Part shown: positions 2,070 to 38,721 of the stretch, one piece after another
Layout of the letters: every line of letters starts with the position of its first letter
Position numbering within the stretch: the stretch's first letter is position 1
From: Pagrus major
Lineage: Eukaryota; Chordata; Actinopteri; Spariformes; Sparidae
Length of the DNA: 64,000 nt
Direction of reading: 5' to 3'
Assembly (NCBI RefSeq): GCF_040436345.1
Contig: NC_133219.1
Span: 18,188,958-18,252,957, forward strand
Translations under genes and position numbers: made by a program
Notes under the pieces: generated by a model
What the model was told of the DNA's origin: nothing
The model's input: the letters and a program-made list of their open reading frames with translations, nothing else
Database searches by the model: none

Positions 2070-5000
2070 GTGTGCGTGTGGTTGGTGAAGTGTTATGGCT
2101 CAATCAATAAGGGACTCATTAAATAAAGAACGGCTAATGTAAGCCATCACTCTGTGCTGTCCATCTCTCCGTCCCCAAGCCTTGACTCCCTTTTCATTTT
2201 CTGCCACTCCACTCATGTTAATCTCTCTCCACCTTTTCATCTCCTCCCTGTCTTATCTTTAGTTTGTTTTTCATCTTCCCCTCTACCGTCCTTCCGCCTC
2301 AGTCATCTATGCACTCTCCATCTTGTCTTTTCGATCTATATTTTACCTCAATTTCTCCCCATATATCGACCATTTTCTCTCTATTCTGCTTCATCTATTC
2401 CCCTCTCTCACCTTTTTTTCTTTCTCTTCTCTACCAGTATAGTTCATTTTGGAAAGGTGTGAGATGACAGTAAAGGCAGAGACAGCAAGAGAAGAGGGTA
2501 AAAAGAGAGACAGAGTCATACAATATGAGGAAAATGTACTAAGTAATGCATCAGCCACAGGCTGCATGTTTAATGGATGAGTGTAAGAGGGCCGTCTGGC
2601 TGACTCAGCAGAAAGTAGGGAAATCTCTCACAGCAGGCCTGAGACGCTGTGAGCTAACAGGCACAGTTTTTGTCATTTAGACCGATGAATTAACTTGCTG
2701 ATTATTTCAAAGTACCCCATGGGTTTTCTTATTGTAAACAAACATTACATTCATTGTTTCTCACCAAAAGGCATTGTGTGTGTCCTAACAAACGCGTCAG
2801 ATAGGTGATTTGCTACCTTATTAATCATTTGAAAATACTTCTTCTTGGAATTTTTTGAGACCTGCATTTTTTCTGTCTTTTATTTGTGCATTGCTACATT
2901 ACATTAAACTAAATAGTTTAAAGCTGAGGGATGTCATATAGATGCTATCTCTTTCATGAGTTTTTGAGGTAAACACCTCATATGATCAACATGGACACAT
3001 TTGGATAGACCTACAACCAATCAGAGCACGAAACGTGTGATGTGGCACTTCTTGGTTGTCTAGAAAAAAACCTCAGCAGCACTCCTCTACAGTCGTCGCC
3101 CCATATTAGATACGGAGATTGGCTCAGCACAGGCCAGATCAGCTGGAAATCTGTCTGAACGAAAGGGACACCAGACACCAGATCTGCCAAAGCAAATAAA
3201 ACATGAGCTTGGAGATGCATCTGACTCCCAGGCTAGCATGCAGGTGTTGTTAGCAACTGATGATATACAGTATCTCCTGCAGTGAGATAAGTCTAAGATA
3301 TAATACAGTATACTGAGTGACAAAGCTCAGTCATTTTGCCTATTTCTGAGTTTAACTGCTTGATGAAGTGCTGGTCAGCCTGATTTATATCACACCACAT
3401 CACAGTCACCAGTGTTGGGGAAGCTACTTAGAAAGCATAATTTCGTGAGTTTCCAATGACCTTACACTGGAAGCTACCCAAGGAAGAAATCTAGTTCGGT
3501 TAAAGGTCATATTGAACAGAGTAAACAAATCATTAAAAGTTTGTAGAAAGGTGCAGAATAAAAGTGTCTCTTTTCCTTAAAAACATCTTTATGATTGTGG
3601 ATTACTAATTTTGAAATTTTTGTCAGGTCCAAAATTATTGTTTTGTTTATGTCTGTGTAAGACTTCTGTTAAGTGCCAAAAAATAAATATTAAATACCCT
3701 ACAATTCAACTTCTAGTTTAATTAAATGTAGTTCACTACTCCCTAAACGCTGTCAGTCACATGTATGGCTTGTTATGTACAGAACAATTTGTGGAAGTTT
3801 GCCTACTGAACTGGAAACGACATACTGTGTGGAAAGTAAGGCAATGAATTGTTTTGGACGCTTCACAATTTAGAAAAAAAAATATGATCAGTTTTATTCT
3901 CCTGGCAACTAGAACAGTGCTTTATTTAAAATAGAAACAGAATTGGCTTGCTACATGTGAGGGCTAGTAGCCACCATGGCTGAACAAGCTGTGTAGACAG
4001 AGCCTAGAGATTGCTCATCAAGAGAGATCTGAGGGAAAAACATGTCCCTCGAGTGCCGCCTACAGTCTGTGATTGGCAGGAGGGTCACAGCAAAAACAAA
4101 AATTTTCACATAACACCTTAAATATGTTGCCAAATCAGAGAACACGTAATTCTCAGTGCATTCTGTAAACACTGTCACACAAACAAACCCAGTTTCATCC
4201 CTTGTCACTCTGGCTAAACACACTGGACACGGCTGCCAACTGGGAACACTGATTTGTTTGATTTGTTCTGCTACTTTTCTATCCATGAGGAATGTTTATC
4301 AGACATAAATATCCATTTCCTCATATGCATTGCTCCTTCACCTCAGTGGTAGCCAGCTGAGATTTGAAACCATAGCTGTATAGTTAAGAGATTGACTCCC
4401 CTAAGACTTGAAAAGAAAAACATCCAAGTCTCAAGAGTCAGACATGCAAAAGACAGACACACACACACAAACGGCCTCAGAGTTAATATTTGATGCCTGA
4501 TGTTTGAACAGCATTGTCTTCACCTGACCGAACAAATCAAACATAGAAAACTGTGTTCAGATTCACTACCCACCACTAAACATGCCCTACATGTGTGTGA
4601 TCTTGTTTCCACAGACGATCACCAAAGTGCTGCTGCAGTACTCTGCCCTGCTGGCCAAGAGCTTCCCCTCCTACTGTGAGAAGGAGAAGATAGTGAGTAC
4701 TGCTGCGTCACCACTTCACTCTGAGCTCATCTCTGATTTAGAGAGAGACCCAGAGCTTTGAAAGCCTGTGAGCTTTCTGTGGACTGGATTCATATTTTAG
4801 ATGCTGCTGCCCACTTCTGTAACTCTTTATCTTCTGTCTATCCCTGTGTTTGTGTTTGGTTCTTTCATCATTCTGTCATCGTCTTTTCTTTCTTTGCCTG
4901 ACTTTCATTCGTTTGCTCTTGTATTTTTGCTTTCTGTGACTTTCTTGACTTTCCACTTGTCTCTCTGTCTCCCTCCTCTCATGTTCTCTTGTTCACTCGC

Positions 5001-8000
5001 GCCTGTTTTCTCCCTCATCCATCTTGCACCAGCCCTGCGTGCTGATGAACAACATCCAGCAGATGAGGGTCCTGTTGGAGAAGATGTTTGAGTCGATGGG
5101 AGCAAAACAGGTCAGCATTAACGGTTTCCCACACACACACACGCACATAGACGCACGCACACACTTCCGAACACTTTTCCTGCACCATTGGTTTTTAATC
5201 ATCTGCCACAGAGACCTGAGAGTCTGACATTTCTCATTTCACCTCACTGTCAGTGATTTCTCTGATGAGGTGTTTCTTTGTGGTTCAAACTCAGAAAAAC
5301 TTTAAATGAAAACTTGCAGCGTATAGGGGTCTTTATAGTACGAGACAGAAAACTGCAAGATTTCAACATTATCTTCTTTATTCACAAGGTGCTTTAACAT
5401 AAAAGTTGTGGGAAAAGTCTGGTTGAAAGGATTTTTTTTACAGACCAGAGAAAGTTTTATAAAAAAAAAAAAAATCTGTTCTACATTGCTGCCACGTCAG
5501 AGAAAGAGAATGTATCAGTAGCACCTTATAACGTGAAATGTTTGATGTTACAACAAGATATTTCCAGTTATTACGTAATAAGAACTTATATAACGTTATA
5601 ACAAGGAACTTCTACTTCTACAAAGTATTTTCACATTATGTTATTTACAGTTTACATTATAACAAGATATAGATACTATAGCCTATTGTATTAACAAGAA
5701 AAGTTTCTTTCTATGTCGTACATTTATACCAGAGAGAGGAAAACTAATGGGGGACACAAGTAGCTCTGCTGAGAAAACCATTTATTTCAAATGGAAACAT
5801 GCTGTGAACCTCCTGTTCTAAAGACTTGATACGAGTGAAAGCAGAGAACATTGAGGATAAAGTTTTAACACATGTGTAATGCGGCAAAATGCACTGATGT
5901 TGTTTGGGACACTATAGTGTGTTTTCTACATCGTCGCTCACACTGTGGATGTTCCGATTTTCAACCCAACACACCCAACAAATGAAAGGAAACAGATCTT
6001 AGACGCTGTTCAACAAGTTGTGATCAGGAATGCAAACGGGTGACGAACGTTTTCGAGGTCAGTGCTTTTAAAAAATCTGAGCTAATCCAGAAAACTGCTT
6101 CTAGATTTTTAAATATCCAGTTGTCCAGATATTTATTTAGTGGATTGATTTGATTTAAACTTTATTTTACTCATCTGATGCAGAAAAAGCTGCTCTAGCC
6201 AATGAAATCACAGACACGAAGCGCATTTGTGCACGCAAAACTTCCCTGTCCACTCTTTTAGTGGCTGTCGGTATTGGACATAGACCTAAACTTATTTGGG
6301 TCAGCTCATTGCCCTCCAGGTGTGACCTAATTTTTGTGATAAAACCATTTTGTATGTATTTGGGTTCACTATGAGGAGAAGCAGCAGGTTTTTGTGTGGA
6401 AATAAATCGACAGTACATCTTCAGCCTTATAGCCTTCTAGCCACTAATTCTAGTGGAGAAATCTCTCTAACAAAAGCTCACCTTGTTTTGGTCATTTGTT
6501 TGCAGATGAAGGTGTAAAAGGTGCAGCAGGTGTTCAGAAAAAAATGTAACTTCCATGTGGCTGCAAGTTAATTTATGTAACATGACATTGAGTGTGTGTG
6601 CTTTTCTCTCTGCAGATAACTGCTGAGGAGGACAGGGTATGTCTAGGTTTCTGTTTTGCCCTCGCTCCTCTTTCCCCCGTAGAACACAAAAATCCATAAT
6701 AAACAAGTTTATTAGAGCAACAAACACCACCCTGTACCTCTTGCCAACTGTCAAACCTTCTTTTTAACAAGTAGTGTGTCTGTGTGTGTGTGTCTATTTT
6801 TAGGTTGATCCCAATTCACCCATAAACAAGAGATAGACTTGATCTCTTTCTCCTCCTCCTCCTCCTCCTCCTCCTTAGTCGACTCCCAGTTTTCACTCCC
6901 AGAAACAAACTTTGCTTTTCTTTTCCACTGAATTTAATGTATTTGAAAACATACTGTGCTCTCTACCACGTTGCTGCTTCTCTCCAAAAGCTTGAGAACG
7001 AGGAGGAACCTGAGGATTTTGATGAGGAGGTGGGTCAACAACCACAGAGCTCATTGTTCAGTTTGGATAAGATAAAACGACTGGTTGTCACAGACGGCTG
7101 CACCTAATAGCAAAAGTCATGGCTGCTGAGCCTTGTTGTGTTGTTATTGGTTACACCGCTTTCCAAGTCCAAGTCCAAATATTTGCTGCAAGAAAAGGCT
7201 TGTTAGAGATTCTGAAAGCTTAAGAATTTACAAAAGACTCTTTGTGATCAATTGCTTTTCTCTTTAAATAGCAAATACATTGAATAGCAGAAAGTATGTG
7301 GACACCCACACATTACAACAGTATTTCAGACATTTAATCCCAAAATATGGGTACTAATCTGGATTAATAATTTTGGAACCTGGGGATCTGCTCCCAATTA
7401 GCACGAGAGTATCAGTGACGTCCAACACTGATGTTGACATGGCTCGTAATCTGCATTCCAGTTCATCCCAAAGATGTTGGATGGGGGTGAATTTGAGACT
7501 TTGTGCAGACCAGTCAAGTTCCTCCACACCAAACTGGGAAAAGCATTTCCTGATGAAGTTGGCTTTCAGCACAGGGGCATTGTCATGTTGAAACCAACCT
7601 CAGAATCCATCAGCTATAATTCGACAAAGATTTGGCCTCTGGGGCTAGCCAGCGGATCCTGATATCAGATATATGGGGCAGTATTTGCTTTGCCATGTGC
7701 CAGTCACTGTTTACAGACTGATTAGCAACTTGAGACTTGAGATTCAATTTGAAGTTGAGAGACGACTAATCTCTACAAACAAATATTTGCATATGAATCC
7801 AGATACATTTCTGAAAAGCTAATTAAAAGCTAAATCATTATCAGACGATAGCCGATGCGCTCCAGGATTGCATATCGGCCAATGCATTCTGCCTCTTTTG
7901 CTCTCCACACAGACTGTTTGCATGTAATCAAAGCCTGTTATGTTTGCCACACCAAAATATTGTCCTTTGTTGACGTATGCTGCATTTATATGCAAATATT

Positions 8001-11000
8001 TGTTTTCAGAGATCATGTTGAAACAGGAAATGGACAAATTATATTTGTGGTTCTTCCAGTTACTTTCAAAGTAAAATCTTTCAGGTCAGATAGTAAAAAA
8101 TAATTTACTGGTTGATGTAATTCTGAGTGTGGTGTGATGGCAGATCACATTTAATTTTTCGGGTCTTGACTCAATGAAAGCTTGAGCTTGTAGCCAGCAG
8201 TATTATCATTATCATGAATTAGTGTCTCATTGAGTGAATTGTTTTATAATCTAACACTAAAACCTACATACTTTTGTCATGTCCTTACAAAATCTGAGCA
8301 GATTTCTTAAAACATTATAAGACTCTCTATCATGCAATTGTTATTTTTTTCTTTATACCATTGTTTTTTTGCCCTACATATTATATAATTTTCTTTTTTT
8401 AAATTTCCATATCATCTCCACCAGGCCGTCAGTGACAATGAAGGGGAGGATGACATGGTGGGTAGGCTGCATCAGCAAAAGCTGCCAGCAAAAACACAAA
8501 AATCACAAATATTTATGCTCACCACGTCTTTATGTTTTAATAACTGTCATTTGTTTTGGGGGTTGGGGACAATCTTTATGGCCACCAGTCAGAGGACTCC
8601 AAGGTGAGACAGGGATTCTAGGTCATTCCCACTGAGTTCTTATTCCATATATTTTCTTAAATCTCATTTATTATTTTTTTTCTAATTATTTTCTCATTGT
8701 TTTGTCCATTTCAACACCAGTCTGGTTGCTCAGACTCGGAGGGATCTGAGGTAAGAGTATTTTTAGGGGATATGTACATTCATTGTATTATAGTTAGTTT
8801 GGACTTCTGGCAAGTAGAAATTTACAAGTGAATCATCCATTATTATATATGAGTGTCTTGTTTAGTGAATATGGATTGGTCGCATGGATAGCAGTATAAT
8901 CTGAGAATGTTTTTGAAACTGCCTGTGGCTGTGACCTTACCAAATGTCATTTCAACATTAAATGTCGATGTGAAGGGAGGGAAGAGGAAATCATTTTATA
9001 ATCATAATCATTTTCCCTTTCAAGAGTTCTTTGATCACACATTTAGACATGTCCTACAAAAAGAAACAAATGATTTTGGACATGGATAATCACAGATTGG
9101 ATAATAGTCAATGTGTTCTCAGCTTTTATTACAAGACTAAACAAAACAAAAATGTGCAGACTCAAAAAAAACAAAAAAACCCTGTGTGTTATGTAGCATG
9201 GAGGTTTAAACATTTGGTTGTCTAATTGTTCTGCTTTAGGAAAAGTGTCCAAAATCACAGGGAAGCATTTTATATACATTTCACATGATTTAAGATGAAT
9301 TTAAAGTGACTCCCCATCTGCTCCGCCTTAAACTCTCTCCATGCCAAAGCGTCCATATAGCCTCTGGTACCACATGCTAGCATAGCCCTGAACACATTTA
9401 CAGCTGGGTGCTAACACAGCCTCCCTCCTCTAGTGAGTGCTTAATAGACTAGACAGTGGGCTGCCAGATAATTGAATTTGATTGTGCATAAAAATGTTGT
9501 ATTTAGCCGCCACTAAATGGCCTCTTGAAATGGCTTAGTTTGTTAGCTGACTGTGGGGGAGGAGGAGGAGGAGGAAAGACAGATTTGGAGCAGAGGATGA
9601 AGAAAGTGTGGCAGAGTTTCAACCATGCTGCTTAATGGCCAAAGTTACCGTTGTCTTAACAGATGTTGAATGGGATGTTAGAGTGAAAGTACACATAGTG
9701 TTACGGTGAGCTTAATGTGGTGCTCCTTTGCAGGAGAAGAGATTGTGTGTGTGTACTGTATATAGTGTGTGTAATTGGTCATAAAAATTGGCCTGAGAAC
9801 AAACGTTTAAGCTCGAACCCGACAATGAATAATTTTAAACCTTTTATGCTCCTGAATTGATGCTGTCCTCTTGTGTTAGTTGAAAAAATTTAAATTAGCA
9901 GTGTGCGAAATTAGAGGTGTTTTTGATATATATTTCTTGGGGACTTTCTTCATAAAAAGGGAACCTCAAGTCACCTGAATGCACCCTGAGTTTTTGTGTT
10001 TTTATTCCTCTGCGCTGGCAACAGCCGTAGCTTGAGGCGTCACGTTTTCAGATTGTGCGAAGCTCATTAGTTTTGCGGATATTGAGCTGAGGTGATTATT
10101 GTTGCACCGTTTGACAAAGCTCTATATCAGTCGTCTGTACTGTAAATATAGTCTCTACTGTAAGTGAAGACAGCTTGTTTCTCACTGGTAATTATTCACG
10201 GGAATCATACATGTCATTATAGTGATGACTACCATTTCGCCTCAAAATAAACCAGAGGTGTCTCTCCACAGATGAATTAAATTAGTTTACATTTTAACAA
10301 TACGTGCTATTTCACGTCCAGATTACATGTATGTGAGCTGACTTTCATGTGAGGAAGAGGGGTTGATGTTCAGCAGTACAGTTCCACCCATTAAGTTTGT
10401 TAAAAAATGATCTTCATACAACTTTTCACTGCTGGTTTTACCATCTGTGAAGTTCTGAAACATGTTGGATTTTAAGGGCTGCCTTGTAAGAAAACACAGT
10501 ACTTTCTTATTTTGCTAATGCTGTCCTGTCCATTCCTATCTCTCCTATCCTCTCCCGTCTTGAATTGTCCCATATGCCCATAGGTTGACAACAAAGAGAA
10601 GGAGAAAAAGGTTGGTTGGTCAGGCCCAGTAATTAGGCATTTGTGCAACCAGGACTTGTGTTTTGTGTGCCGTGCTGTATTTGTGAACTAGACCCACCTG
10701 TGTATGTTTATGTTCTGTTTTTTTACCATAATTAAGTAGTGTCTAATAGAATATTAACAATTATGATGTAATATTATAGATTAAGATCAAACTTTACTGA
10801 TCCTCAAGGGGAAAACAAGCTGCCAAGCAGACAAACGATAAAAAGTAGTGAAACCACCTTTACCAGCTTCAACGATGTAAGTGATGACCACATTAATCAA
10901 TAATCTTAATCCAATATTATAATATTATTGCTGCATAATGAGTACTGTGGTACTCTAAGTATATTTTGATGCCAACAGTTTCTGTTCTTTTACTTAAAAA

Positions 11001-14000
11001 TTAAAATGCAAAACTTGTAACTGAGTATTTCTACTCTGTGGCACTGCTGTTTTTTATTTAAGTACAAGATCTGAGTGCTTCTTCCACCTCTGGGGAAGAG
11101 TTCTGCATTTGTCGCCTTATGACAATAAAGATTAGCATCTCGTTAAATGCCTCCTTATACAGCTAGCAGCAGTAAAAGGATGCTCCAGGGAAATGCTGGG
11201 TGCTACATGGCTCCTGCTATTACTCTGAGAAGATTGGAAATGTAGTTGAAGTGAGGAACAAAAACATGATATATTTTTAACTTACGCTAAAAGAAAATGC
11301 TGAGCCCACACAGCTGTTGAGAACTCGCGACTCACAAAGAGACAACAAAGGGAGGTGTTGGGTAGACACACTGGCACAATCACATGGAGTATTCATCACT
11401 AACTGATATTTTCTCCTAAAACTTAGGATAAAAAATAGAGTTCTGTTATTGTGATGCTGAAGTTTAGTTTGTGCCCATGTTAAGCCGTTGTTTACCATCC
11501 GTCTTCCTGTAGGATGATTCCTCAGCCTATGATGACAGTGAGGATGAGCAGGAGAAGGTTTGCTCTCTACAATAGGTTCCTCCAACATTTCCATTACTAA
11601 CCTCTCCTCTCCTGCTGGCTGCCACCTCAGAGCTGATAAAAACCTCATATTGTGGTTATCTAGATCTTCCATGAACTTTACTATTCTCTCGTGAGACAGT
11701 GTCTCAGTTTGTTTGTGTGTGTGTGTGTGTGTGAGCAGATATACTGTATGTGTGCACATTTCCACAGTTGTTTTCCGTCATTTCCATCAACATTTTCTTA
11801 TTGTCTTCCTCATGCCTCCTATTTGTTGTTTTCTTTCTTTTAATACGTCTTTGTTTCGTTCCTTTTGTCGTCCAGAAGGTTGATAAGGAAAAGGTGAGCC
11901 AGAAGCCAAAGACTTCCATGTACACTTTTAATCTTAAGGATTACTTGTGTTGAACATTTATGTCATTTGTCTTTCTCTTTCTTGTTTTCACATCTTTCTT
12001 GTCTCAATCCAAGAAGGAGAAGGTGTGTTTGCATCTACACTGTATTTGCGCAGACACATTTTTTTAGCATTTAGAGAACATGTGTGTGTAGTATGAATGT
12101 ATGAAATGACAATGTGAAAACGATCCCAGTGGGAAAGCTTTTGCTCATGTTGATGAACATACATGGAATAATCACCTGAATCTGCAGCTAACTTCAGCTT
12201 TATAGAGAGCATCAGCTCATTGTCTAGCTGTCCGACCCTCATCTTTACTTTCTTGGTTCACTCTTACTGCTCTTATTGTATTATTTTGGGCTGCAGCAGA
12301 AAGGTGGCCTTAACTGCTGGTTGTGTTAATAACAACACATGCTCATACCTAAATGACCTGACTTCCTCCTTTGCTCCTGTCATAATTACTCCTGCCACTA
12401 GAGGTTGCTAAACACAGTGTATGGCTCCTAATAAGCTGCTTGTACAGACTTATACAGTGACATCACTGGTGAGGACGGGCTTGTAAATAAGTAACTGTTT
12501 GCCATATCTACTAAAAAGGTGCTTTTTTAAAATTAGAAGAAAATGTATAATATAGTTTATAAATAATAGCGTTGGGTATGGCACTTAGCTTAAATTTGCA
12601 GTTACATTACAGTCACTTGAAAGAAGAGGCAGGAGCTTGTGTGTAATGACAAAGACCCCAGTGTGAGAGGTAATGAGTGTTTTAAATAGGGAAAACAAAT
12701 GCTTTTGAAACTTACCATGCTCTAAATTATTGATACTGAAATGATCAGAGGTCCAACAGAGCGATAGCACTCTGGCTAAAGTGAAGGATGGACAGATAGA
12801 TTTGCCTTTATCGCTGACAACATGAGGCCAAAGTGTAAACTGTCTCGCATCAATAAGTTGTTTTTGTCCAAAGGAGATCTCAGTCAACTAGCAGGGACAA
12901 GACTCCGCTGTTTTCCTTTCAGCTGTTTTCACGATATCATATCTTTGAGCACAGATGGAGCAAGTCATTAGTGACATGATTTGGTGGTAGAAAGGACAGA
13001 CAGACTCTAAATAGCTTTTGACATTTAAGTGCGTTTAAATCCCAACTGTTAATGATCCTAATCCTGTTGAAAGTAGCTAAAATCATGCATCTTGTCTCAT
13101 ATCTGAAGGTGTAAATCCTGTGTGTGCTTTATGCAGAGAAAAACCTTGAACCCTTTAAATGTCAAAGCTTGTTTTAAGCTATGTTTTAATCATCCCTCAG
13201 AGGAGGGATGTGAACCTCCAAGCTTGATATAAAACCTGTGAATCAGCAAAACTGCTCCAATGAGGGTCTCACCTGAAAGCAACAATAAGCTTTATGAATA
13301 TGTGAGTCACTGTCTGGAGGGAACGAAAGGCTAACAGGAAGGCTGAACTTAAAAGAAAGTGCTGAAAAGAGTGCGCCTGTTATGATGTGTGAATGTGAAC
13401 ATTTGTTCATACTAGTGCTTCTTGCATCTAAGCGTATAGCTCACTGACAAATGTGTGTCCTTGCAGGCTGAAAAGAAAGACAAGGAGAAGCAGGTTGGTT
13501 TGTAATCACTCTGCCTTTCACCTCCCCTCTCTGCTCAATTCAGCTTTTCGTATTTGCTCTCCTTCCTGTGTAATACTCCCTGAACCTCTGATCTTTTTAG
13601 TCATTTTGAATGCACTCATGTATTGACTTCATTGACGCGCCATAATTGCTGTTCAGATACATATTTTTTTAAAGCTAGCTCATTAGGAGGAGTTTGTTAG
13701 TGGAAAAAAAGGGATTAATGGTGCTGGATTTCTTTTTGAACATTTCTTTTCTTTTTTCCCCACAAGGAGGATAATAAGAGCAAACAGGTGGGTGCTTAAA
13801 ACACACTTTACAAAGACAAATGGGGATTTGCAAATATTTGTTTTAAAAAAAAAGAAAAAAAAAAGGCCCTGCAATGCCCTGTAATATGCATCTTTCTCAA
13901 GTTTTTGTTCTGAAATTCATAATCTGCCCACTTTGACTGAAGGCTGAATGATCACTTTGGATGTACTGACTCATTTTTGAAAACATTGTCAAAGGAAGTT

Positions 14001-17000
14001 AAGGAAGCTTCACATCAGTCAGCATAGGCATCAAATATCAAAAGTAACAGTAAGAAGCTGATACAAACATTTTTTTAAAACTAAACAAAACACACTGACA
14101 AACTGCAGGCAAGAAAACTATCCGGCATGATTTGGAGCAAAGCCAGTGGCTGGTGCTGGCACGGTGTAAGCTAACAATACATCTGGGTTGTAAACAGCAG
14201 CAAGGGCACTTTATCACGTGTTAAAGCACTTCAGTTAAGTGTGTATGTGTGTGTATGACTTCCACTTTGTGTCTGCTGCCCCTGTTGACTCAGACTTTTC
14301 CCAGAATTCAATTCAAAGGATCATTTCTAATTGCCAAAACACTTGGATTTGGCCTTCGGCAGAGGCTGCACTGTTTGATTCAATTGAAGGCGATATTTGC
14401 CTGAGAATGAAGCTTATTCTCTCTGAACTTATAGGCATGCTGTTTTGTGTTGTATTGCAGTAAAATTGTTGGCTCATCGTTCCCTTTGGAATATTTTGTA
14501 CTTGTGGGGAAGGTGAAAAACATGACTATAGACCGCTGCTGTCTAATGTTTTATTTTGTTTTGTTTTTTTCCTCACCAGTCAAAGGAGGAAGTAAACAAG
14601 GTTTGTTTTAGCAGTCACAGTCCTTTTTTTCCTTTGTAGAGTTTCTCCCTTTGATCCACCTCTTTCATGCCACTCCTGAATTTAGACTATTAAGCTGGTA
14701 GCCATGGTACAACAAACATCCCTGTCTTCCAGTTAACCTGATAAACATTATTACTGCAGGTTGTTATTGTAAAATGGTAGAATCAGTCTTATAAAACAGA
14801 GCTGGCCTCAAGAATAAGCAGACTAAGCAGCTGTTGAGGGGCCCTCAGCGACCCCAGACAAAATGAAAATGTGAAAAGAAAAAAGGGAGGGTGTTTTTTC
14901 TTTATGTCTATATATTTCATATATTTGTATGGGATGGGAAAGAGTGAGAAGTTCTTCTAAAGTATGCCTTGACTGACTTACTTTTAACTGAATGTTTGTA
15001 TGTGCATGTGTGCAATCATCCATGGACAATTGATAGGAAATTGTGAGAATATACACTTACCCGCTCTGTAATGAACATGTACTCTGCTGGGACCAGAAAC
15101 TCATTAGTCATTAGGATTTCTTTGCTGCCCCATTCTTTCTAGTTGAGGGAAATTGTGTGTGTGCTTTCAACAACCCAGTTGAGTGCCCAGCAATAGTCGC
15201 ACTTCAATCAGGGCCGAGCTTAATTGTGCAAGTGTGTTGCTTACCTTACTGAACTGTACAGTATATATTTTTTGTTTATATTTTTATGTATGTTGGGGCT
15301 GGTTTGTAAGCATTTTACTGCCAGTACCGCCACATCACAAAATTGAGCGATTTTATAAGGGAGTCTGGGGAATTTCTTCCCCTCTTCATCTCCATGCTGT
15401 TCCAGACTGTAGTTGCTGTGGCTGCTTTGACCTATAGTATGTTGATGTTCCAGTTTACCCCCAGCTGTAGTCCAAAACGTCCTCAAATTGTTGTTAATAA
15501 CTTTTAGATATATATTTTATCTTGGCCATTCAAATTAATTAAAAAAAAATGTTTAAATGAATGTTGTGCACCATTTACGGTGACGTCATTATATAGACTG
15601 AACCCTCAGCAGTAACTGACTTCCTGTATCCCTGCTACAGTCCATATTTATTTATTCCTCCAGGCACATTAAGTACCCAGGAGAGTATATGAACAGGTTT
15701 GCTTGCGTTGCTTAGATGCTTGTCTAAGCGTATATTCGCGACATTTACGCAAGTAGTCATTGACTAACCCCCAAAATTGCAGGTGATTCATCATGCTAAA
15801 ACCACAGATGAATGATTAGTACAGCGATGCACAGTGAAGACTACTGGTTTAGATATTGGATCGTAAAAAAAGCTTTGGCCAGCATGAAACATCTGCTTCA
15901 ATTACATCTGATCATTCGTTCTATACATGAGGCTATCTTCCAAATAATTCTTGTTTTGGATGACGTCAGCGTGCAGCAGTGTCATATCAGACAGCAGTGA
16001 AATGTTTTTCATCAGGTGATGTCAGTTTTCCCTTTTGTCTTGTATCATCTCAATAAACCTGGGGCAATAAACAAAAATCTTTTATTAAAATCACCCACTC
16101 ACCATTACCCAATCCACCAGACAATATCACAGAAACTCCCCCAAAATAAACCCTGACGCTATTTTCACCTGCCGTATACCATAATGTACAACCCTGTGTG
16201 TGTGTGAGTGTGTGTGTATGTTACAATTTATTTAAATCATCAATGTTCCTCACAGTATTGTGTGACTTTACGTTCTCTTTTTACTTTTGTGTCTTTTCTC
16301 GTTTTTTCCTTTCTGTCTCTCCGGGAAGACTGAAGCCACAGCTGCCACAAAGAAGGTACAGTTGGGTGGTAGAGTGCGATAAGATAGTCGAACAAACACT
16401 TGTATTACTTATAAAGGACACTTCTAATTTCAGGCTGTGTTTCTAGTGAAGAGAGTGTGTACATGCAGGCTTGTGCGTGCGTGTCCTTTTGTTCTTAAAA
16501 GTACTTCTTTGTAGTCATTCCCACTCACATCACTTTCCTTCTCACAAGGTCTTGAAGAATTGCAGTCTGTAGTATCTCTACAGTTGGTGTTTTAAAGGCT
16601 TGGTAGTTTTAGCTATGAAAGAGATTATATTAAATCAAACATGATGTAAAATTGTAAGCTCATCTGTCACGAGCTTAGAACAAACACCAGAAGCTCGGGG
16701 ACCAGGGGAGCGTTACTCCAATGTTTCCAGCCCGAGCACAGGAGCTTCAGACTAGGAGGGGCCAGGGCTAGCTGGTTAGCATGCTAACTTCAGTAGATAT
16801 CACTGCAAGAAAAATTCATAGACATCATAATGTCAAAACTGATATTTATTCACATTCTGGTGAAATGATCAATGATCACTTACAGCAGCTTTCAGTTGCT
16901 GTTTTGGCTTACAGTGAGTAACATAGTTGCTGATTTGAATCTCAAATACAGAATTGTAAGTGCTGAATTAATCTATGTACTATTCCACTTTTAGGCTTGA

Positions 17001-20000
17001 CTAGGTCTCAATACATCTACACTCACACTTCTCTTGATTCACCTTCCTTTCTAATACTGAAGAGGATGTCGTCTATTTTCACTCATTTCTCAAGGACACC
17101 TCACACACTCATGTGCGCACTCACCTCCAAATGCCTGTAAAGATGCTTGAATCTTGAACACTTGCAGCCCACATAAACACAGCTGTACATTTCATTTTTG
17201 GATCCAGACCAAGAGCAGACTTGGTCTGACGGTGCAGAGTGGACACTCCCGCCTCTCACTTCACTCATTGCAACATTTCCCAATTAAATTCCAAGATACT
17301 AAAACACTGTCACTTGAAAGTCATGGCCTCCTTTTAGTCCAATTATATGTTATGGCAGTTTGCCCAACGTCCTCTATCTAATAACACAGTTATCGATGGC
17401 ACACTTTCTATGAAGACACTATAGGATGCCTTATCTTGCAATCGTCTAGCCACTTGGCTTGTGTAACATGTGATGCATACTTGAGGTCCAGCATACTCAT
17501 GAGCTTCAGGCTTAATTTTACAGGTTTATCGAAGGTCTGCTACTAGACACTTTAAGGCCAATCTTTCCTGCTGGCTGCAGAACCACTAAAAGCTGCACTT
17601 TGCAGTGATAGTTTCTTAATAGTAGCTGACAAATGAAAAAAGACTGATTACTAGTGCCATGTTCAGCATCGTGGGCATTGCTTGGTGTGTCAAGCTGTCA
17701 AAACTGCAATTTGATATTTTTAATAATTGTTTTGTTTTTTATCTCTAGTGCTTAGATTCATGGCATGTATTGAAAAATCTTTAAAAGCCTGCTTTAGCAT
17801 CACTCAAGATGTTGCCGACATTTCTTTGCACCTGAATTTACGTGAGTCTAAATGTGAAACATTCAAAAGGTATTGGAGAAACATTGATCACACACTAATA
17901 TTAGCTAAAACATGTCATAAGGTATATGGGAAATTGACCAATCTAAACTCAAAAGTTGGATTTCCTTGCCTAAAACCACTTCGATGTGTAACAAAAACAC
18001 AAAGCCCAACGTTGTGATTTCACTCAGTTGCAAAAGTGCTGTTTTCTGTGTCCATTGCATGTCATTTCCAAGTAAACTTAAACTTGTATTATTGGCTGAA
18101 TCATCACGCCTGCAACTACAAACCTCCACTCCCTCCCACTTTACAAAAAATGACACCAAAATATCCTAGCTATACTACAGGTGCCGCCATCTTGTGCTGT
18201 CGACATCACTTGACCTATACTGCAGCCAGTCACCAGGAGGCAATTTGGATGTTTTGGCTTCACTTTTGGGGAGCTGTCATGTTGTCCATCTTAAATCATC
18301 AATGCCTGCAACACACAGGACTTACAACGCGATCAAGCCTTTAAAATTATACCACAAAGGTCAGAGGACTGTCTGTAGTGCATTTCAGCCCTGGGGTGAT
18401 TGCAGTCAGGTGGATCTGGCAGCCATTTGGTGTCCTACTCAGGTTTACTTCCATCCTAGGTAGGACACCAAATGGCTGCCAGATCCAGGGCTGCTCTCAA
18501 GAATCCATATTGCACCTGTGGTTAAACCACAACCAGTCAGTGTCCAGTGAAAAACTACTGAGAACCACAAGCATGTTTTAGGTGTGACGACTGGTGGTAG
18601 AAGCGTTTTTGAAAAAACGGTTGTGGCTCTTCAAGAGGTTAGGGTAGATGTTGCTTTGTATCAGCTCAGTTATATCAGAACTGGAGAGTTTATTTTATTA
18701 AAGACAACCAAAGGAAGATGTTTTCGCTCTACCCTCAACTGGCTTCATAAGAGTTTGATTACCAACTGGCTCTGCCTGCAGTAGAAGCTGATAGAGAGAT
18801 GGTTTGTCCAATCACCTGCCAAGTTTCCAGGACGAGGATGTGCGAGATGGTTCTGTGTAAAAAAAGTTATCTGAGCCTGACCTCTTGGCTTGAAGTTAAC
18901 TTTTATTATTACAGCTATTTAGACTTAATCTGCCAAATTTTGCATCCAAAAATGAGTTCAGGTTTCCCTGGTTTGCAATATTTGCGAAGCACAGGTCTCA
19001 TTTAAACATGAGCTACTGGTTGCTGAAAAAGCCTACAGAAACAAATCTCATGAAAATGTTTGTAAGAGTCAGCTAATTTTAGATCACTCTTTGAGTAGCT
19101 TCCTCCTTCTTCTTTCTACTCTGAACATCAGCCTCACTGTGCTTCCCACCAGTTTTATTATATGTCATTTTATTCACCAGATTCAGCTTTCTACTCTCAA
19201 GAAGTCTGTTAACTGAGGATAGAGTGACAGCCTCCTGTCGTCAAACGAGTTCCACTAAATGGACTCACTTCACCTCCTGTGGTATATTTTTGAAGGCCTT
19301 GAGTTTGTGCTTGTGTTCTTTATAACTTGAAGCGCGCTTTTCACACGCTGTTGAATGGTTTTGAAAAGGCATGAATGAACTCCTCATCTGTTTCTACCGT
19401 TACATCTACAAACTCCTCCCAGCTGAACTCGTCACAACCTTTTTCGATTTGTATCTGAGTCAGCATTTCTTTCCTGTTCTGTGTACATTCGTCATCCAGC
19501 TGCATCATTAAACACACAAAATATGCCCATACTGTAACTCCTGGTGCGTGTCTGACTGATACTCTCATTGTATTCACAATCGGTGACACTGAGAATTGAA
19601 TGCGGTGTTATTCATCTCCTCTGCACACTCCAAATATATTCCTGCACTAGAATTTATATATACATACTGTACAATTTTCGAATCCGCTTCATACAAATTT
19701 ATGTTGCTGCAAACTTTGTGCACAGTTCTGCTCAAACATCCAGAAAATCACAGAGGAGAAACCAACCAGATGTTCATATTGATTTTGGCACTTCAGAGTG
19801 AGTTTGTGGAAAAGTTTTCAACTCACAGCACAGAAATAGATCTTACACGAAAGACAACCACCTTTGGTTTTGGTTGTTTCATCTTACTGTTACTTCAAAG
19901 CGCTTCCATCACTTGATCCAGAACCGTAAATAGAGACATTACCTGAAGTCTTATTACACTTAAGTTGGACTGTAACCTTCTAATGTTCAATGGACGCAGC

Positions 20001-21329
20001 TGTCACATATTTTTGCTCAATGCTCCTGCTCCTGTCATACCTGCACTTCTTTTTCCCAAAATCTTTACAACCCTTCTGCCTTTATCAAACCATGTTCCTA
20101 TGCACAAAAAATATGTTATTTATTAAACATGCGTACGCACACCTGCATGCAGTGAACAAGAATAAATCCTACCTATTCTGTGCATCCACAAGCTTATTCA
20201 CCAAAACCTGCAGCCTCAAAGTGTTATACAGTAAACATCCCTTTCAGGCGGACTACTTGTTGTGGGGAAAATACTAAAATTAATAGTAAAAGCAACTCAG
20301 GAAGATCACTGACGAGGATGTTCAGCTAAACCAAAATGTTTTATTTGGCACTTTCAGAAGCGGTTTGTCAAAAAAATGCTGTAACAGCATTTTTGCATGT
20401 GTTAACGCCTGTATTTATTCACATTTGACATTACGCTTATGTTTAATGTCATTTTTCATTGGTTAGCCTCTATAAAGATAGAGAATTACAGTTTTCAATA
20501 TTTTTTCCCATTCATACAAGCAGTCTTTCTTTGTCATGTTTATATTAAATGTAGTCTATTCACATTAGTGTACAAATACCTAAAACTACATTTCATTTTG
20601 GCTTGTTCTCACATTAAAATCATATCAGTGGGTGTCACTGAGCTACAGTTAGGTATTTTTGGTCTTCCTTATTGATAAATGATTGTTTTCAAAGGTGCAA
20701 TATGTAAGACTTGGCCACTTGTTGAATTTATACAATTGGGGGCAGCATATCCCATCACCAGAGTAACTACTAACTTCTGCTTACTGTATTTTATACATAC
20801 GTACATGGCTTCTGTTAGCTTTAAGCTCAGTTAGCCGTGCAGATAGTCGGACTACTGGGGGAGCTGGTTAGCATGCTAATTCATTACATATCTGCAACAA
20901 ACGTCTTTGACATAGCGTCAAAACTGTTATTTCTTAAAATTCTGTTGCTGATTTTAGTCGATTTTTTAATGTTTAAAACTAAAATTTGATGGCTTTAATT
21001 TTAATTTATTTTAATTTAATGTGAAGTTTCTTTAATAGTGAGAGAGAAGGAGAGAAGAAAATACAAATACATACAGAAAGAGGAATAAAACTCACAAAAA
21101 GGGAGAACTGAACTCACTGAATCTGCCATAAGAATGCAGAATTTTGGGTTTTAACAATCTAGATGTGGCTGTATAACTCAGAAAAGACTTTAAGTCACCT
21201 GATCTCACCTGTCCACTGTTCATTTATATGTGTGTTGTAGCTGGATACAGAGGCAGCTGACATCCTCAATGAACTGCAGGTGAAGCTCAACACTGTCCTG
21301 GACAACTTCAGCACTGTATTTGCCAAGAG

Positions 21330-21364
<35 letters not shown>

Positions 21365-24300
21365 ACACACAAATATAGTATTGCAATATGGCCCAGAAAC
21401 ACTCCTCCACCAGCGTTGCAGAGGTTTTCTTCTTTAAGTTTGTCTCTGTCTTCCTCTCCCTTCAGTTTCCAGGCTCGTATTAACGGCTGCATGCGTCAGA
21501 TGGCTGAGATCCTCTACCAGATCAAAGGCCCACCCAACCACAACACTGCAGAGGCAGATGCTGACACCATGCTGAGGCCCCTCATGGAGTTCCTGGATGG
21601 AAAGTAAGAAAGCATGACACACACGGTGGCTCCTATTATATTTTTTATATTGCTTTTGGAATATTTACCGGCTATAAAACATGTATGTGGTATGTGTCAC
21701 AGTCTGTTATTGTGAGAGATTGGTGTATCGGTTGCAGTTTTGAATGCGACATTGTTTAATTCCCCTAACAATACATTTGTGATTGGAAAAACTTAAGCTT
21801 TTAATGTGTAGCACATGACCATGATGTAGTTTGATCAAAGCCAAGAGTAATACATGAAAAAAAACACAAACTCCAGGTCAAAACATCCCCTTTTGAGCTG
21901 GGTAAAAGTGGTATATTAACCCAGACTGGATCAATTTTAGTGTGTAAATACTGAAATTCCTTAGATTCCACTTCTTCCTAATTGAGTTCAGGAGCACCGG
22001 AGGGCAATTTAATGAGGCACGCTAACACAGCATGAAGTTGACACTTATCCCAAAATCTTGTCCAATGTCGAGTTAACACTTGGCTGTTGAGGCTGTAGTT
22101 GTTGCAAATTTCATTATTAATAAGGTTAAAACATCAAAATTAATTTAATAATTCTACAGTCCTTGACAACTTTCTTGGGGCATTAAGGTGCAGCTGATTA
22201 GCAGCCCAAACTGAAACCGAACATAGCTGTGAATGAATCAGTGTGAAAAGCAAAAGACGAATGAAAATGGTCAAATGGATTAAAGGGGGGGGAAATAGTT
22301 TTTAAATTGCAGTACACACCTTGCTGCATCACAAAGGAGAGAAACATATTTTATCTAATCATGTCATTCACAATAATCATTTTGTCCTTCGAGCATTTTG
22401 TCCTGTTGTTAAGGTGCAGGAGGCTGTTATCTAGCAAAACCAAACAAAACCATCATCATAGTACTGGAAAGTACAGAAAGAGAGTTTTTTCTGTGGAAAC
22501 AGACATTTTGTCTCGACTGTTACAAACAGCCATGTCTGGCCAAAAACTTCTCCTTCTCTCCCATGCAGATTTATTAAGATTTACGATGCTATGACCGCAT
22601 GATATTCAAGAAAGAAGTATTATTATTTTAACTTGTTTATTTAGGACACACACTGAGGGTTCTCCTGTGAGCATGCAAACATATTTTATTTTGTATTCAT
22701 CTAACTAGTATTAACACTGGCTTTAAAAAAAAAACATAATCACTGTTCTGTTTTGTTTTGTATGTATTCATTGTTCTGTATAACCCTTATCATGTCATTG
22801 ACAAATCACTCTTTGTACAGTACTTAGGTCACAAACTGACCTCTACAGAGACAAGTTTGAGCTCACAGTTTTGGTGTTTGTTTGTGATTCAGCCTCAGTA
22901 TCTTTGCTGACATCTGTGAGAAGACAGTGCTGAAGAGAATCCTGAAGGATCTGTGGAAGATCGTACTGAGCAGCCTGGAGAAGACCATCGTCCTGCCTCA
23001 GAGCAATGACAGCTTAGTAAGTACAATCCTAACTCTTGCTCCAACCCAAACTTCAACTACACAGCGTTGCACTCCTATAACACGTTTGGACTCACTCAGG
23101 ACAGTGAGTATCAAACGTATCAAAATCAATGCAGCTATACTAGATAACGTCTTTTTGTTGCACATGTTCTTCCTTGTCAAAACCTGATTGCTTATATTAC
23201 CCACAATGCAATAGTTCAGTCAGAGATTTAAGGGTTTTATGCTTGTAGCGGCTAATGTAGCCTAGAGCCGCTAGCCACTAGAGATGAGGAGTGGGCTGGT
23301 ATGCTCACTTCTTTCTAACTCCAAACCTCAGATTCCTTCTGTTTTCCAACTGTTGGTTGGATCTAAAGACTACAAGTTCAATTTTATCACATCACATACA
23401 AATCACATACCACACTATACTTATTGCCAACAATGGATAATTGTAGGAACCCAGCTGAGATCAGCAGCTGTGCTCTGCTGCCACCTAGTGGTGTATCTCA
23501 GCAGGTGTGTTTCTATAATTCAAAACATTGGAATAATCTTTACATGAGTCTGTTCTAGTTAGATTTTCTTCTGTGAATCATGTTGAATTAATTCGTTTTG
23601 TCTTTTGTACTGATAATTATGACAATATCACATGAAGTCTCCCCCTCCTCTCCCTCTGCAGGGTGCCCAGCTCCTCACAGCCGCTAAAGGACTGTCTAAT
23701 CTCAAGGTAACACACACAGGCTTTGTTTGTAAAGGAACATTTGAAACCCTGAATGTTGGTTGAAACATTCATAAAAAGAAGTCAAATTAGCTACAGAGAG
23801 CACAAGTTCTTGCAGATTTTCCTGGTGACTTTGAAGTTTCCCACAGCCACAGTCATAGATGTTTAAGTAATTGCATCTAAAAGCATTTGTACATGGATAT
23901 CAAAAGTCGCTGGTGGATGCTTGTTAATGCAGCATGCAGGAGGTTGCATAAAGCTTGCAGTTTAAAGACTAAACAGGTAAATCAAACATTTTCCCCTACC
24001 TCAGCAGTTACTGTTGAGCACTCAACTACTGCTCACAGAGCTGAAGTCTCTGAAATTTGTTTGCCACTTAACTATTCAATCGATTAAAGAAAGAGGCTCA
24101 TGATGATGTACACAGTCAGTGTAGACGTACTGATGAGGGTTCATTGGTCTGTTAAAATGATTCATATTCATATGGAATTAATATCCAACCGGATTTATGA
24201 GCAACACTTTTTAGTGAGACTAAATATCAACACTATGTGATACATAACAAAGGCCTGGATCTTCTGTTTTGTTTTTTATTCACTTTATAAAATGTGTCTA

Positions 24301-32047: not shown

Positions 32048-33478
32048 TCACAGAGAAATATCAGTCTGACAGATTTTGAGATCAGCAGTTTTAGCATCAT
32101 CAGCATTTCCAATACTGAAATATGGGAAGAGTTTCTCAGTGAAAGTGTCTCTGTGAGTGTAGATGTGAGTCGTGTCTTCAGGGTCGTTGAAGGACACCTC
32201 CCCCCTGTCATAGTCCAGCTGGACTCTGATCCTCTGGAGACTCTTCTTCACTGTGACAGTCTCACCAGCACCATTAGTGTATTTTCCACTGCGATGCAAT
32301 AAACACCAGATTCCATATTCTGGTGTCAAACATATCTCTCCCTTCCTGTCAACTGACTCTTTAACCACACCTACATTCCAGTCAGGATGATCTCCCACCT
32401 CCACCTCCCAGCTGTGTTTCCCTGAGCTGAAGCCCTCAGAGCCATGAACATCTGCAAAGAACTCACATCTCTCTGGATTGTCAGGAAGCTGCTGCTTTGT
32501 GTCTCCATATCTCACACTGATCAGATCATCAGACAGATGGAGCCAGGGGTATGCAGTGTTTGGGTCCAGAATGACAGGACTGAAGTGGACCCTGTCCTTC
32601 ATCTTCTCCCAGACTCTGAAGGACAGGTTGCCCAGGTGTTTGGCCACATCTATCAGCGCTCCTGAGACCAGCTGTGGATCTGACAGTGAGCACTGGACTC
32701 TGGCTCTGGTCTGAGTGGCTTTATAACTGCTGAGGAATGGCACATTGTGTTTCTGCAGCTCTTCTTCAACAGCACAGATACTGTCTGACAGAGAGGAGAT
32801 CTGCTCCTCCATCATCTTCATCTCTCTGCTGATAGTCTTCCCCTTCTGCTCCTCTTCCTCCCTCAGAGCTGCCAGTCTGGACTCCTCTTCGTCTTTCAGG
32901 AACTGGTGGAGCTTGTTGAACTCTGCTCTGATCTGCCTCTCTGTGGACGACAGCTGCTTCTTGGAGTGTTCAATCACTTCATTGTATGTTTTCTTCACAT
33001 GTTTGTATTTGTTCCTCTTGTCCTGTAGAGACTTGAGGTCAGATGTCAGCTGCTCCTTCAGCTCACTGACTGCTTGTTCTACAGGAACCACCTTGTGACT
33101 CTGGTGGAGAGAAAACTCACAGACAGGACACACAGCTCTCTGCTCGTCCTCACAGTAGAGAAATGTCTCTTCTGGATGTTTACTACACACCACCTCCACC
33201 TTCTTCTCTCCTTTTTCTGCCTCAGATGATCCAGATTTCCGTCTCCCAGCAAAGGAGTCAGCCAGTTCCTTCAGAGCAAAGTTCAATGGTGGAAATTCCT
33301 TTGAGGATCTTCTTTCACAAATGGGACAGTTTTTGTTTTTAGCTTGTTCCCAGAATTTTTGCAGGCAGCTTGAACAGAAGCTGTGGTTGCAGCACAGAGA
33401 CACAGGATCTCTGAAAGTCTCTGAACACACATGGCAGCTCAGGTAACTTTCAAGAAGAGCAGAACTTTTCTCAGCCAT
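32048..33478 (-). CDS. TRIM protein A (RING, B-box, coiled coil, PRY-SPRY), TRIM35/NF7-like
   Basis: An intact intronless 476-aa tripartite-motif protein, a likely E3 ubiquitin ligase of the fish class C-IV TRIM expansion. RING zinc ligands seen: C15, C18, C30, H32, C35, C38, C51, C54. B-box 2 ligands: C98, H101, C109, E112 (usual Asp position), C117, C120, H125, H128. A long charged coiled coil follows at about 130-250. A PRY-SPRY domain spans about 285-470, with WEVEVGDHPDWNVGV and LDYDRGEVSF. The start is the first Met (MAEKSSALLES), immediately before the RING as in related genes; the length is typical. The paralogue at 37149 is very similar except in the B-box and one SPRY loop. An interferon-type element lies 149 bp upstream. 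Function in antiviral signalling is inferred from family and promoter; exact orthology is not assigned. Confidence 0.93.
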   Translation of the reverse strand: MAEKSSALLESYLSCHVCSETFRDPVSLCCNHSFCSSCLQKFWEQAKNKNCPICERRSSKEFPPLNFALKELADSFAGRRKSGSSEAEKGEKKVEVVCSKHPEETFLYCEDEQRAVCPVCEFSLHQSHKVVPVEQAVSELKEQLTSDLKSLQDKRNKYKHVKKTYNEVIEHSKKQLSSTERQIRAEFNKLHQFLKDEEESRLAALREEEEQKGKTISREMKMMEEQISSLSDSICAVEEELQKHNVPFLSSYKATQTRARVQCSLSDPQLVSGALIDVAKHLGNLSFRVWEKMKDRVHFSPVILDPNTAYPWLHLSDDLISVRYGDTKQQLPDNPERCEFFADVHGSEGFSSGKHSWEVEVGDHPDWNVGVVKESVDRKGEICLTPEYGIWCLLHRSGKYTNGAGETVTVKKSLQRIRVQLDYDRGEVSFNDPEDTTHIYTHRDTFTEKLFPYFSIGNADDAKTADLKICQTDISL

Positions 33479-33626
33479 TTGTTACTGAAGTTATTTTTCA
33501 CTGCAGGACTCACCAAGTTACTGTCTCTTCTCTTGATTGCTTCAAATACTCCGAACGAGTGTTTTTCAGCAGAGAACTCACACCCTGTAATGGCGTCTCA
33601 GCTCTGTTCAACAATGTCAAATCTAC

Positions 33627-37148: not shown

Positions 37149-38573
37149 TCACAGAGAAATATCAGTCTGACATATTTTGATATCAGCAGTTTTAGCATCA
37201 CCAGCCTTTGCAACACTGAAATATGGGAAGAGTTTCTCAGTGAAAGTGTCTCTGTGAGTGTAGATGTGAGTCATGTCTTCAGGGTCGTAGAAGGACACCT
37301 CCCCCCTGTCATAGTCCAGCTGGACTCTGAACCTCTGGAGACTCTTCTTCACTCTGATAGTCTTACCAAGACCATTAGAGTATTTTCCATTAGCATGCTT
37401 CAAACACCAGATTCCATATTCTTGTGCATCAAATATCTTTCCCTTCCTGTCAACTGACTCTTTAACCAAACCTACATTCCAGTCAGGATGATCTCCCACC
37501 TCCACCTCCCAGCTGTGTTTCCCTGAGCTGAAGCCCTCAGAGCCATGGACATCTGCAAAGAAGTCAAATCTCTCTGGATTGTCAGGAAGCTGCTGCTTTG
37601 TGTCTCCATGTCTCACACTGGTCAGATCATCAGACAGATGGAGCCAGCGGTTTGCAGTGTTTGGGTCCAGAATGACAGGACTGAAGTGGACCTTGTCCTT
37701 CATCTTCTCCCAGACTCTGAAGGACAGGTTGCCCAGGTGTTTGGCCACATCTATCAGCGCTCCTGAGACCAGCTGTGGATCTGGCAGTGAGCACTGGACT
37801 CTGGCTCTGGTCTGAGTGGCTTTATAACTGCTGAGGAATGGCACGTTGTGTTTCTGCAGCTCTTCTTCAACAGCACAGATACTGTCTGACAGAGAGGAGA
37901 TCTGCTCCTCCATCATCTTCATCTCTCTGCTGATAGTCTTCCCCTTCTGCTCCTCTTCCTCCCTCAGAGCTGCCAGTCTGGACTCCTCTTCCTCTTTCAG
38001 GAACTGGTGGAGCTTGTTGAACTCTGCTCTGATCTGCCTCTCTGTGGACAACAGCTGCTTCTTGGAGTGTTGAATCACTTCATTGTATGTTTCCTCCACA
38101 TGTTTGTATTTGTTCCTCTTGTCCTGTAGAGACTTGAGGTCAGATGTCAGCTGCTCCTTCAGCTCACTGACTGCTTGTTCTACAGGAACCACCTTGTGAC
38201 CAACATGGTGAGGAAAGTCACACACATGACACACAGCTCTATCTTCATCCTCACAGAATAACTTAGGCTCTTCTTGATGTTTACTACACACCACCTCCAC
38301 CTTCTTCTCTCCTTTTTCTGCCTCAGATGATCCAGATTTCTGTCTCCCAGCAAAGGAGTCAGCCAGTTCCTTCAGAGTAAAGTCCACTCCTGGATTTTCA
38401 TTTGAGGATCTTCTTTTACAAATGGGACAGTTTTTGTTTGCAGCTTGTTCCCAGAATTTTTGCAGGCAGCTTGAACAGAATCTGTGGCTGCAGCTCAGAG
38501 ACACAGGATCTCTGAAAGTCTCTGAACACACATGGCAGCTCAGGAAACTTTCAAGAAGAGCTCTCTCAGCCAT
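37149..38573 (-). CDS. TRIM protein B (RING, B-box, coiled coil, PRY-SPRY), tandem paralogue of A
   Basis: An intact intronless 474-aa TRIM protein with the same order of domains. RING ligands: C13, C16, C28, H30, C33, C36, C49, C52. B-box 2 starts with CSKHQEE and ends CDFPHHVGHK. The coiled coil is almost identical to that of TRIM A. The PRY-SPRY contains LDYDRGEVSFYDPEDM. Differences from A cluster in the RING-B-box linker, the B-box and the SPRY loop around EYGIWCLKHANGKYSNG; the coiled coil and most of the rest differ by only a few residues. The start MAERALLES lacks the two extra residues seen in A. It probably arose with the tandem duplication and is likely interferon-inducible by its upstream element. 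Confidence 0.93.
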   Translation of the reverse strand: MAERALLESFLSCHVCSETFRDPVSLSCSHRFCSSCLQKFWEQAANKNCPICKRRSSNENPGVDFTLKELADSFAGRQKSGSSEAEKGEKKVEVVCSKHQEEPKLFCEDEDRAVCHVCDFPHHVGHKVVPVEQAVSELKEQLTSDLKSLQDKRNKYKHVEETYNEVIQHSKKQLLSTERQIRAEFNKLHQFLKEEEESRLAALREEEEQKGKTISREMKMMEEQISSLSDSICAVEEELQKHNVPFLSSYKATQTRARVQCSLPDPQLVSGALIDVAKHLGNLSFRVWEKMKDKVHFSPVILDPNTANRWLHLSDDLTSVRHGDTKQQLPDNPERFDFFADVHGSEGFSSGKHSWEVEVGDHPDWNVGLVKESVDRKGKIFDAQEYGIWCLKHANGKYSNGLGKTIRVKKSLQRFRVQLDYDRGEVSFYDPEDMTHIYTHRDTFTEKLFPYFSVAKAGDAKTADIKICQTDISL

Positions 38574-38721
38574 TTGTTATTCAAGTTTTAGTTTTCACAG
38601 CAGGACTCACCGAGTTACTGTCTCTTCTCTTGATTACTTCAAATACTCCAAACAGGTGTTTTTCAGCAGAGATCTCACCCTGTAATGGCGTCTCAGCTCT
38701 GTTCAACAACGTAAAATCTAC

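Follow-up and report, generated by a model that had tools for sequence, protein, structure and literature searches.

The window analyzed here is a 64,000-nucleotide stretch of the genome of the fish Pagrus major (C5:18188958-18252957, where C5 is one of the 25 contigs of a 786-Mb genome). The first 26.9 kb or so are taken up by the 3' portion of an unc13 gene; its last open frame stops after ..RPVEEGR. One intron of the region encoding the MUN domain, the core of the vesicle-priming activity of these proteins, contains a row of 13 candidate micro-exons that encode mostly charged residues. They are almost certainly real exons, and a similar row occurs at the identical junction of a second unc13 gene of the same genome, located on contig C12. 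The explanation that we favor, and hold to be fairly probable on these grounds, is that two paralogous fish unc13 genes have inherited an array of cassette micro-exons, all symmetric (phase 0-0), which sets the length and the charge of a disordered loop.

The affiliation of the gene to the UNC13/Munc13 family follows from the MUN domain that runs across the joined exons flanking the array. The Pfam MUN profile (PF06292) matches these joined exons at 2.6e-37 (residues 1-101 to profile positions 257-357 of 473), and six PDB sequences of rat Munc13-1 match them in the MUN region as well (best 8.4e-31). The host intron is 16,130 nucleotides (nt) long and lies between positions 5110 and 21241 of the + strand. 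All 13 micro-exons (Table 1) are preceded by AG and followed by GT, have a length that is a multiple of three and are free of stop codons; in order, they measure 21, 39, 33, 15, 30, 27, 45, 18, 9, 27, 21, 21 and 27 nt (range 9-45). Both flanking exons meet the intron at a codon border, and with these lengths every micro-exon is therefore in phase 0-0. Together they total 333 nt and encode 111 residues, of which 65 (58.6%) are glutamate, aspartate or lysine (E/D/K), with a net charge of -22. The charge is unevenly distributed: the block of micro-exons 1 to 5 is acidic (46 residues, net -20), and that of micro-exons 6 to 13, a K/E block, is nearly balanced (net -2). Two size limits for microexons, a strict one of 27 nt and another of 51 nt, are quoted in the accessible text of PMC4991804. 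By the size test for neuronal microexons, all 13 are multiples of three of at most 51 nt and nine stay within the strict limit. CAGAAG tandem acceptors, which could add or drop one lysine, were observed at micro-exon 8 (window 11876-11881) and at the third exon of the C12 array (L009:4562-4567).

Table 1 Exons of the array and of its surroundings in the MUN region (positions in the window)
Feature	Position	Strand	Encoded residues and phase	Similarities
Upstream MUN exon	5033..5110	+	..MFESMGAKQ|, ends in phase 0	
Micro-exon 1	6616..6636	+	ITAEEDR	pairs with C12 exon IATEEAL
Micro-exon 2	6991..7029	+	13 residues	pairs with C12 exon QNEEVVEEEEEEAGEEEE
Micro-exon 3	8425..8457	+	11 residues	pairs with C12 exon KAVTDDEETKAV
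Micro-exon 4	8589..8603	+	SEDSK	
Micro-exon 5	8721..8750	+	10 residues	
Micro-exon 6	10584..10610	+	VDNKEKEKK	like micro-exon 10 through the donor (32/39 nt)
Micro-exon 7	11513..11557	+	15 residues	weak DNA match (24/29 nt) to C12 exon 4
Micro-exon 8	11876..11893	+	KVDKEK, or VDKEK from 11879	resembles C12 TDKEK
Micro-exon 9	12014..12022	+	KEK	
Micro-exon 10	13467..13493	+	AEKKDKEKQ	like micro-exon 6
Micro-exon 11	13767..13787	+	EDNKSKQ	
Micro-exon 12	14580..14600	+	SKEEVNK	resembles C12 TNEPVEK
Micro-exon 13	16329..16355	+	TEATAATKK	resembles C12 TESAFEEKK and LETAGKK
Downstream MUN exon	21241..21329	+	starts in phase 0	
Following MUN exon	21466..21603	+		joined with the flanking exons in the MUN match

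The strongest evidence for the array is its counterpart in the C12 copy. When the genome was searched at the protein level, exons resembling unc13 turned up on five contigs (C5, C12, C4, C11 and C21). At the identical junction (..MGAKQ|MDTEAS..), the copy on C12 has a 5018-nt intron with eight in-phase charged candidates, which encode 88 residues with 58.0% E/D/K and a net charge of -31. These exons were chosen by eye and scored afterwards, QHHSDK and the nested or longer variants of a relaxed list being excluded. They too are divided into an acidic block (net -30 in 60 residues) and a balanced one (net -1), so that the passage from acidic to nearly balanced K/E composition is common to both arrays. 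Exons 1 to 3 of the C5 array and exons 1 to 3 of the C12 array are reciprocal best matches at the protein level, and the order-preserving chain of similarities over all exons was equalled by only 25 of 20,000 permutations for protein and 84 of 20,000 for DNA. Outside exons 1 to 3 the paralogous sequences have drifted strongly, and two of the C12 exons are mostly GAG/GAA tracts. A DNA comparison of both introns recovers the coding exons on either side and, beyond these, three weak matches of short length (E = 0.09-0.31), among them that of micro-exon 7 with the fourth C12 exon (E = 0.089). It is mainly because both copies share the array that we call it real and old. The initial annotation of this DNA had described the 13 micro-exons from the letters of the sequence; their coordinates, sizes, phase and composition were all recovered here, and a comparison of the unc13 paralogues of this genome uncovered the similar ordered array of C12. 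Together with the Pfam match across the flanks, this array bears out its claim that a charged, in-phase micro-exon array lies inside the MUN domain.

The array was also compared to what may be expected by chance. Splice sites were scored with textbook vertebrate acceptor and donor position weight matrices, and 20 stretches of 10 kb, scanned in both orientations (400 kb), served as control. All scan cut-offs were set after the finding and its scores were known, and the following figures describe an excess rather than provide clean P values. When we listed the non-overlapping, open, in-phase intervals of 9-75 nt with acceptor and donor scores of at least 0 and an E/D/K fraction of at least 0.5, nine were found on the + strand of the intron and none on its - strand. 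At the same cut-offs the control contained four charged candidates per 400,000 nt, with at most one per 10-kb strand, a rate at which about 0.16 would be expected in the intron. The looser charged scan of the remaining window (21605-64000, 42.4 kb) produced two candidates on the + strand and one on the - strand. Without the composition filter (acceptor at least 0, donor at least 3, 9-60 nt), nine intervals were obtained in the whole intron, and these correspond to eight of the 13 micro-exons and the tandem-acceptor variant of micro-exon 8; the control contained 30 per 400 kb, which amounts to about 1.2 in 16.1 kb. Donor scores stay below 3 (0.1 to 2.0) in the remaining five micro-exons. A stricter scan (acceptor at least 0, donor at least 2, sum at least 6, E/D/K at least 0.5) retained four candidates in this intron and three in the C12 intron, compared to one in the rest of the window and none in the 400-kb control.

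The array has probably grown in part by the duplication of its own exons. The comparison of positions 4601-21700 to themselves (plus strand, E ≤ 0.01) detected two repeat pairs, the first of which matches micro-exon 6 to micro-exon 10, starting at the acceptor AG and extending across the donor GTTGGTT. This pair stands alone among the 78 possible exon pairs, with a score of 43 while the next one reaches 22. Since both exons are alike through their donors, at least one micro-exon probably arose by duplication inside the array.

Among the five unc13 copies, the intron at this junction measures 16130 nt in C5, 5018 in C12, 4007 in C4, 171 in C11 and 84 in C21, the last two, putatively unc13a, offering no room for an array. 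The C11 and C21 copies are the most similar to rat UNC13A (81/103 and 76/102, against 60/100 in C5, 64/103 in C12 and 68/100 in C4). A six-sequence tree built on about 104 columns separates C5 and C12 from rat UNC13A, C4, C11 and C21 (support 99/97). UNC13A is the sole subfamily reference in this tree, and the naming of C5 and C12 after UNC13B is based on elimination; on that basis they are most likely unc13b ohnologues, and we take C11 and C21 to be unc13a and C4 to be unc13c by the same means. The C4 copy has one strong in-phase 27-nt candidate at the same MUN junction (EEGVVSFCK, L011:2510-2536, acceptor 9.0, donor 5.4). None of the 30 control intervals with acceptor scores of at least 0 and donor scores of at least 3 reached a sum of 14, the best one being 13.3.

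The alignment with the PDB sequences places the insert at the junction of residues E1290 and L1291 in rat Munc13-1. The numbering was checked at residues 1358, 1362 and 1366, which read D, Q and D in agreement with the Munc13-1 D1358, Q1362 and D1366 that appear in the accessible part of PMC6325239. Along the sequence, the array would have the syntaxin/Munc18 site on one side and the synaptobrevin-linker site on the other. One of these two SNARE-related MUN sites is presumably located near residue 1130. A possible mode of action can be proposed from this position. Both putative unc13b copies would carry an inherited array at one MUN intron, enlarged partly by exon duplication, and single micro-exons or groups of them would be included or skipped according to the cell type. 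Because every micro-exon is a multiple of three in phase 0, any choice of exons keeps the frame. At E1290|L1291 a disordered loop would emerge from the MUN rod, its length (0 to 111 residues) and its charge being set by splicing. The acidic N-terminal block and the KEKE-like block that follows it could serve as an electrostatic arm, adjustable by splicing and located between the syntaxin/Munc18 and synaptobrevin-linker sites, and this arm may tune vesicle priming. The combinatorial use, the tissue and the function thus assigned to the array are inferred, and the effect on membranes, Ca channels or SNAREs proposed in the initial annotation is conjectural.

The splice sites can be examined for signs of such regulation. 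The acceptors of the 21 micro-exons from both arrays have a mean score of 3.0, against 5.4 in 15 larger exons of the five copies (P = 0.013), as would be expected for regulated exons. Many of the 21 donors follow the pattern GTNNGT (GTGGGT, GTTGGT, GTATGT, GTAGGT, GTTTGT) and not the usual GTRAGT. Several results weigh against inherited, regulated cassettes. Micro-exon donors score at least as high as the donors of the larger exons (4.1 and 3.5, respectively), and regulated skipping is therefore not strongly implied. Three of the eight C12 acceptors score below 0. A UGC close upstream is the motif of SRRM3/4-dependent microexons, but within 40 nt upstream it is not enriched here (7/21 micro-exons and 9/15 larger exons), nor does the ranking of upstream trinucleotides reveal any TGC excess; GCATG is found downstream of none of the 21 micro-exons. 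Finally, the succession of an acidic and a K/E block reported in the initial annotation is upheld by the net charges of both blocks but is not clean, as micro-exon 7 is acidic despite its place in the second one.

Several other scenarios may explain the array. The best of them, which we nevertheless regard as unlikely, is that the micro-exons, though real, are included or skipped together as a single block, or are even constitutive; the insert of the protein would then exist in one or two states, without any combinatorial code. The equality of the donor scores with those of the larger neighboring exons would fit such a block, and so would the conservation in both arrays of the order and of the acidic-then-mixed layout, as selection on the whole insert would preserve them. 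Yet a fixed block does not need each of its exons to be separately a multiple of three in phase 0, and the weaker acceptors and the difference in exon number (13 versus 8) speak against it as well. It is more improbable still that the array is a nearly neutral expansion, in which an insertion-tolerant loop gained small purine-rich exons, some of them by duplication, with little effect on priming. The apparent duplicate pair formed by micro-exons 6 and 10 (32/39 nt), the strong drift between paralogues outside exons 1 to 3 and the two C12 exons largely made up of GAG/GAA tracts are in line with that scenario, whereas the frame, the open reading, the charge bias and the order have been kept in both copies. 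As for the possibility that a long intron contains such open AG..GT intervals by chance, the weakness of some sites (the donors of micro-exons 7 and 13 score 0.2 and 0.1) does not offset the nine candidates found against about 0.16 expected, their absence from the other strand and the matching array of the paralogue, and this explanation was rejected as very improbable.

A more ambitious version of the inherited cassette array would be a splice-coded electrostatic rheostat with up to 2^13 in-frame variants of the charged arm between both SNARE-binding sites of the MUN rod, inherited by the two copies from before their duplication, read cell by cell and perhaps controlled by Musashi at retinal ribbon synapses; we consider this version doubtful. 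We assume that ubMunc13-2 is the mouse counterpart and that it replaces Munc13-1 at these synapses. The connection with Musashi comes from the trinucleotide TAG, whose downstream density is 1.82 per 100 nt in C5 and 2.56 in C12, against 1.01 in 16 larger exons. Compared to dinucleotide shuffles, the P values are 0.096 for C5 (not significant alone), 0.008 for C12 and 0.008 for both, and they are optimistic since six motifs were tried (TGC, TGCATG, GCATG, TCAT, TTTCT and TAG); a Fisher test (0.009) used rounded totals. Among the 64 trinucleotides, TAG ranks second in C5 and first in C12 between +7 and +200, third in both between +7 and +60, and sixth and seventh between +7 and +100. A single C12 exon, micro-exon 3, contributes 14 of the 31 TAGs of that copy; they lie just past this exon (L009:4604-4797), nine of them in one tight run. 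The available passages of PMC4991804 describe how Musashi promotes photoreceptor exons via downstream UAGs and give a criterion for UAG clusters, but clusters of this type are not enriched at the array (runs of at least three in 2/21 micro-exons, for a shuffle mean of 2.56, and in 2/16 larger exons). What could be consulted of PMC7948980 indicates that the splicing of an alternative exon of mouse Unc13b is abolished in the Msi1-null retina. The downstream UAGs hint weakly at Musashi control, which remains a lead. Retinal ribbon synapses use ubMunc13-2 (PMC7660176, PMC11536687, in the portions accessible), but one of these sources reports little effect of its loss at mouse photoreceptor synapses, which argues against a large role there; a passage of the other mentions a drop of the electroretinogram b-wave of roughly 30, the unit being absent from it.

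The initial annotation knew of no described equivalent to this array. That statement was too broad, since UNC13 microexons, a spliced MUN loop and runs of exons in a single phase have all been published, but it stands for the array at this junction: no account of an array of this size inside MUN at this position was found in the parts of the open-licence literature covered by our search. The KEKE exons of triadin and junctin are, like the array, many, small, in phase and rich in K and E, but they belong to proteins of the muscle sarcoplasmic reticulum. The variable exons of troponin T encode an N-terminal tail, and exons 4-8 of TNNT3 (fast skeletal troponin T) are short, acidic and variably combined, and a 1985 paper listed among the references of PMC2447309 names this combinatorial use in its title. 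With 13/13 exons in phase 0 and in multiples of three, and 65/111 E/D/K residues, the array appears to be a charged symmetric cassette series of the troponin T kind. According to the text available from PMC2447309, TNNT3 exons 4-8 are consecutive, alternatively spliced and mostly of one phase class, as in the array, although they are fewer and belong to an unrelated protein, whereas the array sits in a loop inside a folded rod. The micro-exon genes of schistosomes likewise consist of numerous short exons (3-81 bp) separated by long introns (PMC10526429, in part), but they encode secreted parasite proteins.

Closer to unc13 itself, the accessible part of PMC5344669 describes a flexible, poorly conserved and alternatively spliced MUN loop at residues 1408-1452 of Munc13-1, in a domain whose crystal structure was interpreted as having limited flexibility. 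This loop is located some 118 residues beyond the array and its identity with the array was rejected, as the junction lies at E1290|L1291. Microexons have also been published for the UNC13 genes of worm, fly and mammals (Unc13a, b and c; PMC12287369, seen in part): a 9-nt exon of worm and fly unc-13, its 6-nt counterpart in mammalian Unc13c and a 6-nt exon in mouse Unc13b, tiny in-frame exons of the same family with reported effects on synapses or on the growth of neurites (PMC12287369, PMC5247714, in the passages available). In these sources each of them is single, not part of an array, and the 9-nt exon and its Unc13c counterpart are found between the calmodulin-binding and C1 regions, a position that led us to reject the identity of that site with the array. 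The 6-nt exon of mouse Unc13b could be at the junction of the array.

The frame-neutral array, with its 0 to 111 charged residues in two gene copies, would constitute a natural graded series in which charge and reach around the SNARE sites can be compared to the strength of release. The fish exons may well be present in automatic gene models. Models of fish unc13 may also omit or merge these micro-exons, since standard aligners often miss microexons, as stated in the accessible text of PMC7821500.

Some other features were observed in the window. The second repeat pair of the self-comparison is a dispersed direct repeat of about 90 nt, 77% identical, located in the intron at 16770-16862 and 20862-20947. 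The intron also contains, after the array, a perfect inverted repeat with 27-nt arms (18412-18438 and 18460-18486). Beyond the unc13 gene, two long TRIM-like open frames, mutually alike and comprising RING, B-box, PRY and SPRY, are found on the - strand (32051-33481 and 37152-38576).

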